Below, piece by piece: positions 1,070-1,306 of a DNA stretch of 5,244 nt (the stretch's first letter is position 1; every line of letters begins with the position of its first letter). The stretch is from Myxococcota bacterium. GTDB lineage: Bacteria > Myxococcota > Polyangia > GCA-2747355 > JAKLHH01. The stretch lies in the NCBI GenBank assembly GCA_022710245.1, contig JAKLHH010000644.1, positions 1 through 5,244 of the forward strand, read 5' to 3'. Under the pieces are notes generated by a model, which was not told where the DNA came from, searched no databases, and saw only the letters and a list, made by a program, of their open reading frames with translations. The position numbers and the translations under genes were made by a program.

Positions 1070-1096
1070 GACGATCTCGAGGAGAAGAGAAGCACG

Positions 1097-1306
1097 ATGC
1101 GCCCCTGGTTGCTCGCCGCTGCCGCCGCGCTGGCGCTGCTGCTCCCGCTGAGCGCGTCCGCGCGCCCCTGTGTGCACCGCTGCAAGGATCAGCGACAGCT
1201 CTGCAAGGCGCGCTGCAAGGCCGGCGCGGTGGGTTTCCGCGAGCGGCGCGAGTGCATCAAGGCCTGCAACATGCGGCACCTCGAGTGCCGCGCGCGCTGT
1301 CGCTAG
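1097..1306 (+). CDS. Exported basic Cys-rich peptide with four symmetric CX3C motifs
   Basis: A 69-residue precursor. Residues 1-22 are a strong Sec signal peptide (MRPWLL, Ala/Leu core, S-A-S-A end), so the mature peptide is about 47 residues. It has eight cysteines (25, 29, 36, 40, 53, 57, 64, 68) arranged as C-X3-C-X6-C-X3-C twice with 12 residues between. Positions pair symmetrically (25+68, 29+64, 36+57, 40+53 all sum to 93), as expected of an antiparallel helical hairpin closed by four disulfides. About 15 Lys/Arg against 4 Asp/Glu make it very basic. The ATG at 1097 is chosen because it begins the signal peptide; a TTG at 1040 in frame would put 19 charged residues in front. AGGAG (1080-1084) is 12 nt away, a long spacing. 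The twin-CX3C layout recalls plant alpha-hairpinin antimicrobial peptides and mitochondrial small Tim proteins, but I do not claim homology. It is probably co-transcribed with the PPPGY protein 31 nt downstream. Antimicrobial, metal-binding or envelope roles are all possible. Confidence 0.75.
   Translation: MRPWLLAAAAALALLLPLSASARPCVHRCKDQRQLCKARCKAGAVGFRERRECIKACNMRHLECRARCR

Follow-up and report, generated by a model that had tools for sequence, protein, structure and literature searches.

The window analyzed here, a 5,244-nucleotide (nt) stretch of DNA (contig JAKLHH010000644.1), carries at positions 1097 to 1306 a gene for a peptide of 69 amino acids (aa) with a symmetric framework of eight cysteines. 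We found that its mature part belongs to a domain family frequent in one bacterial order, and a helical hairpin cross-linked by four disulfides is predicted for it. The gene and its parts are listed below; pLDDT is the predicted local distance difference test.

1081..1084, + strand: GGAG, a possible ribosome-binding site 12 nt 5' of the ATG, judged from the sequence
1097..1306, + strand: whole gene of the 69-aa peptide, read as an open reading frame (ORF) with an ATG start and a TAG stop (1304-1306)
1097..1162, + strand: signal peptide, residues 1-22, cleaved probably after ASA; read from the sequence and the N-termini of relatives
1163..1303, + strand: mature eight-Cys domain, 47 residues, from the alignment with 23 relatives
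1166..1225, + strand: predicted helix 1, mature residues 2-21 (AlphaFold2 model, pLDDT 94.4)
1169..1216, + strand: arm 1, C25-x3-C29-x6-C36-x3-C40, read from the sequence
1226..1234, + strand: predicted turn, mature residues 22-24 (AlphaFold2), within the 12-residue loop C40-C53, the variable part of the family
1235..1300, + strand: predicted helix 2, mature residues 25-46 (AlphaFold2 model)
1253..1300, + strand: arm 2, C53-x3-C57-x6-C64-x3-C68, read from the sequence

The codon-position GC content of the peptide frame (0.70/0.59/0.91) resembled that of the other window genes. Read by eye, the N-terminus has the features of a signal peptide and suggests that the peptide is exported; hydrophobic N-termini were likewise present in the relatives P0002, P0003, P0004, L207, L223, and L230. 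From R23 onward, the mature peptide has 15 K+R against 4 D+E, a net charge of +11. The eight cysteines lie at 25, 29, 36, 40, 53, 57, 64, and 68, with gaps 3-6-3-12-3-6-3, and every mirror pair sums to 93. In both arms, the four cysteines were computed to fall within ±30 degrees on one helix face. These results agree with the initial annotation, which had described an exported, strongly basic peptide (about +11) with two-fold symmetric cysteines grouped within about 60 degrees on each helix.

The 3-6-3 arm pattern occurred exactly twice in the window (1169-1216 and 1253-1300) and in 0 of 200 shuffles. When eight cysteines were placed at random in 47 residues, 518 of 1,000,000 trials gave a mirror-symmetric arrangement, 496 a tandem of two equal four-Cys units, and 60 both. 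A direct repeat of the 3-6-3 unit, which is itself palindromic, would produce mirror symmetry as well, and the two arms were identical at 6 of 16 positions whether compared as a direct repeat or as a mirror. Since the symmetry has this second possible source, which the initial annotation does not mention, it is no proof of a hairpin by itself, and relatives were needed.

Relatives of the peptide and census of the family

As a single query in a protein collection, the peptide matched only itself. Against 289 genomes from a single class, the same single-sequence query yielded two true relatives, both with a hydrophobic N-terminus and eight cysteines: P0002 (L036 in genome G420; 66 aa, E 1.7e-7), with identical spacing, and P0003 (L037 in G431; 65 aa, E 2.1e-5), with a loop of 13 residues. 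Profiles were then built stepwise from relatives and searched outward, giving P0004 and then L070, the C-terminus of a lipoprotein. A profile search of 317 genomes added L191, L192, L200, L201, and L207, and one of 329 genomes gave 17 domain-bearing loci out of 30 fetched. The final profile had matches at E≤0.02 in 61 of the 105 genomes of one order, including 12 genomes that had supplied model sequences and G166, whose only match was spurious. No Pfam or NCBIfam family scored above cut-off in the nine members scanned (P0001, P0002, P0003, P0005, L191, L192, L215, L217, and L070). Together, these results delineate a domain family common in a single bacterial order and outside the Pfam and NCBIfam models scanned. 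Some of its members are secreted as free peptides; a larger number form the C-termini of lipoprotein-like proteins.

The 67 rows of the final search represented 65 distinct places, 12 of them model sequences. The initial annotation had proposed a profile search for conserved cysteine spacing in homologs, and such spacing was indeed found: 46 of the 65 places keep the symmetric arms 3-6-3/3-6-3 (10 model sequences and 36 outside the model). One arm gap is changed in nine places (3-6-3/2-6-3 in six, 4-6-3/3-6-3 in three), one place has an odd number of cysteines, and three were unassignable (L299, a cut copy, and L324 and L329, judged spurious). Loop length varies in the family from 4 to 15 residues. 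In the alignment of the mature domain with 23 relatives, mean column identity was 31%, cysteines included, and within a subfamily non-Cys positions are conserved, an almost invariant arm-1 Trp among them. L303 (G196:C207), counted among the 46, is a long frame with runs of CX3CX6 repeats and glycine-rich linkers, in which the arm pattern extends at an 11-residue period. L234 (G213) is also a long frame with CX3CX6 runs, its arm spacing sitting inside a longer cysteine array. Other CX3C arrangements were seen in the exported proteins L216 and L240, the latter having a single CX3C-X12-CX3C, which is the alpha-hairpinin motif.

Predicted hairpin and disulfide pairing

AlphaFold2 predicted an antiparallel helical hairpin for the window peptide, as the initial annotation had, with the helix boundaries and pLDDT listed above. 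The relative L224, whose loop has six residues, was predicted to form a hairpin too (pLDDT 91.2). Across 24 domains, Gly and Pro made up 44 of 236 loop residues versus 45 of 757 arm residues. These observations bear on a different arrangement, a single long helix whose cysteine stripe of 11-residue period is paired between molecules. Members with a loop of six are in perfect 3-6-3-6-3-6-3 register for such a helix, and the long repeat run of L303 and the extended array around the L234 spacing favor it as well. However, loops of 4, 5, 7, 8, 10, 11, 12, 13, and 15 residues break the register, Gly and Pro concentrate in the loop, and AlphaFold2 gave a hairpin for loop 12 and loop 6 alike, so that we consider the long helix barely plausible.

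Cysteine losses among relatives pointed to the pairing. With the cysteines numbered C1 to C8, C3 and C6 were lost together in 4 of the 65 places (L313, L314, L315, and L317) and C4 and C5 in two (L312 and L322), whereas four proteins of another subfamily, L201 (P0005), P0006, P0007, and P0008, lack both C1 and C8. Counting one event per subfamily, all three double losses fell on predicted rungs; as 4 of the 28 possible pairs are predicted, the chance of this is (4/28)^3, about 0.003, a figure that does not count L309, where one cysteine alone is missing. Pairing within one arm (C1-C2, C3-C4) would predict different losses. The rungs C25-C68, C36-C57, and C40-C53 of the window peptide are supported because the equivalent cysteines are lost in pairs, and C29-C64 is assigned by elimination, as the only pair left. 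The ladder C1-C8, C2-C7, C3-C6, C4-C5, which the initial annotation had drawn with all four rungs, is thus well supported as a prediction from sequence and model, three of its rungs by paired losses. L311 (G513) has ten cysteines, one extra three positions beyond each end, as though a fifth rung had been added to its predicted hairpin.

Tethering, neighboring genes, and host

In one examined set, a lipobox-like motif preceded the domain in 23 of 24 loci, 12 of them flagged at first and 11 more visible in a further comparison. Of the 38 places in another set, 32 had a profile match ending no more than four residues before the stop. Net charge across 24 domains ranged from -7, in L223, which is also a free peptide, to +12. 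For 12 orthologous lipoproteins (66 pairs), the proportions of nonsynonymous (pN) and synonymous (pS) differences were 0.16 and 0.67 in the domain and 0.21 and 0.55 in the remainder. The domain of this lipoprotein subfamily is under purifying selection, which bears out for one subfamily the codon-level constraint that the initial annotation had looked to homologs for. The lipoprotein-like L259, L261-L263, L266-L269, L271-L273, and L275 have a common N-terminal domain (pattern ACG.SL..A......Y..C...D......R..CW..WL.......R...A), a proline-rich linker, and then the C-terminal hairpin. In the lipoprotein L070:6514-7134, a Myxo_Cys_RPT stretch and an InlB-like repeat, both below cut-off, lie ahead of the C-terminal hairpin.

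Upstream of the peptide gene in the window is a gene for an ACT-domain protein (507-932, PF19571). Downstream lies a gene for a proline-rich, membrane-like protein that ends at 1898, with a PPPGY-type proline-rich N-terminus followed by hydrophobic stretches; because the ATG taken for it, at 1335, is only 28 bases past the peptide stop, the two genes may be co-transcribed. Next in line are genes for an 801-aa protein that weakly matches tetratricopeptide repeat (TPR) models, for a dicluster ferredoxin, and, truncated where the window ends, for a subunit of a 2-oxoacid:acceptor oxidoreductase. On the minus strand, positions 1-240 hold the beginning of an exported-looking protein with a signal-peptide-like N-terminus, which runs off the window start. 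No recognizable immunity, export, or maturation gene was present among the five neighbors scanned with Pfam.

Relatives of the 801-aa protein occurred in 10 of 14 genomes from the order that includes G420 (37-44% identity) and in a Deltaproteobacteria bacterium (31%). The NCBIfam model Myxo_Cys_RPT scored above cut-off in 7 of 10 chosen genomes versus 0 of 14 controls. The host of the window, like the family, is probably myxobacterial (Myxococcota). In G431, a YfiO (BamD-like) lipoprotein, a TPR protein, the peptide overlapping the TPR stop, and a RidA-like gene stand in a row (L068:647-2774). In G506, an exported glutaredoxin-like ORF (L243:6821-7168; PF00462, E 7.9e-11, CGPC) is divergent from an adjoining free peptide.

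Known folds and possible function

The mitochondrial twin-CX3C proteins, small Tim proteins among them, carry their CX3C pairs on an antiparallel hairpin with two rungs; their profile match was E 0.91. Vanabin2 superposed with a root mean square deviation of 4.2, and its cysteine framework differs from that of the family. The core motif of plant alpha-hairpinins, CX3C-X4-20-CX3C (PMC11591084), is found in the window peptide at C36, C40, C53, and C57 with X12. However, alpha-hairpinins, vicilin-buried peptides, and luffin P1 have four cysteines in two disulfides or CX3CX3C six-Cys forms, whereas the window peptide has eight cysteines in 3-6-3 arms, and the best profile match to alpha-hairpinins was E 0.014. 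The closest parallel in rung number came from neurotoxin B-IV (1VIB), whose two helices are cross-linked by four disulfides, as described in PMC11722136; the earlier claim that known folds of the twin-CX3C type have only two rungs is not supported. PMC6410017 gives eight cysteines for the nemertean toxins B-II to B-IV and six for B-I. All eight cysteines of B-IV align with a five-member family profile, and a helical hairpin, predicted for the family, is common to both; the B-IV gaps, as read from the alignment, are 3-6-2-10-3-6-3, against 3-6-3-12-3-6-3 in the window peptide, and five family members (L274, L276, L296, L304, and L306) come close to them with 3-6-3-10-2-6-3. The profile matches of B-IV were E 0.091 (five-member profile) and 0.34, and at E 0.091 homology is not established. 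An animal precedent thus exists for a ladder of four rungs, and the novelty, within the scope of our searches, lies in its occurrence as a bacterial family whose members are often tethered.

We propose that the window gene encodes a free-standing, secreted peptide of a bacterial eight-Cys helical-hairpin family, a rigid module that would be exported and serve for binding or as a spacer. Taken whole, this statement is tentative, falling a little short of an even chance. The peptide would be exported via its signal peptide and oxidized outside the cytoplasm to form C25-C68, C29-C64, C36-C57, and C40-C53; the result would be a rigid rod of two antiparallel helices joined by a variable turn, whose compact and stable form might then be used for binding or as a spacer. 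Export, oxidation to four rungs, and the rigid rod are, jointly, very probable; a binding role is possible but rather doubtful. The soluble, strongly basic form in the window would probably bind an anionic envelope or extracellular polymer.

Several observations weigh against this proposal. The AlphaFold2 alignments were shallow and assembled by ourselves (24 and 23 rows), and the evidence from the models consists of helix boundaries and pLDDT. Because the profile itself prefers this arm spacing, the search accounts for part of the arm constancy, but not for the co-losses. L328, counted among the 46 symmetric places, has an in-frame stop, L070 has its last cysteine displaced by two, and the first arm of L230 is 3-3-3. 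C3 alone is lost in one of the 65 places (L309, 29-33 of 44 positions identical to the group lacking C3 and C6), leaving an odd cysteine, and C29-C64 (C2 and C7) is without co-loss support. Finally, no common neighbor gene was seen between the compared loci of relatives, so no partner is indicated.

Myxobacteria are known for predation, and the nemertean B toxins are toxic to crustaceans through nerve ion channels. With the same fold, the free cationic peptide could be an antimicrobial or a predation toxin against other cells, like the alpha-hairpinins or B-type nemertean toxins: it is free, exported, and of net charge +11, its nearest solved structures in profile and fold comparisons include alpha-hairpinins and neurotoxin B-IV, and it has a probable myxobacterial host. 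As a function of the family, an antimicrobial role is not supported, because net charge spans -7 to +12 among 24 members, the most acidic (L223) being also free, and many members are tethered as lipoprotein-like C-termini; moreover, the Pfam scan of the five neighbors gave no immunity, export, or maturation gene. We regard an antimicrobial or toxin as unlikely, and a wider version of this reading as very unlikely, in which the family would correspond, in bacteria, to the four-disulfide hairpin toxins of animals, its free members released as effectors or toxins, its tethered ones displaying the scaffold on the cell surface, and its cysteine framework, nearly identical to that of B-IV, reflecting shared ancestry instead of convergence. 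The hairpin could also be purely a protease-resistant stabilizing cap or spacer without a binding partner. The weak conservation and the position of the domain just before the stop fit this, but it leaves the free peptides unexplained and does not account for the non-Cys positions conserved within a subfamily, such as the arm-1 Trp, and we find it improbable.

Copper-storage proteins (Csp) carry CXXXC motifs, and reduced cysteines could bind metal here as in their helices, or the basic helices could do so as in vanabin. According to PMC7558416, Csp are helical and Cys-rich, as is the predicted hairpin of the window peptide, and the Csp1 type is exported; they differ in forming a tetrameric four-helix bundle. 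None of the nine members scanned matched a copper-storage family in Pfam or NCBIfam, and His is not conserved in the alignment. The loss of cysteines in cross-helix pairs is what disulfides would predict, but paired losses could also arise at a metal site. We consider metal binding quite unlikely, and both it and the antimicrobial reading rank below the binding or spacer module.

Our results add a domain frequent in one bacterial order to secretomes that are probably myxobacterial, and they provide an example of how paired cysteine losses across species can reveal disulfide pairing. A scaffold known from animal toxins and plant defense peptides is seen here in bacteria as a commonplace module, at the surface or secreted. 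Confirmation of the fold would make available a rigid hairpin that is small, can be exported, and tolerates free variation of its turn. Whether it arose by convergence or common origin is a question that can be tested.
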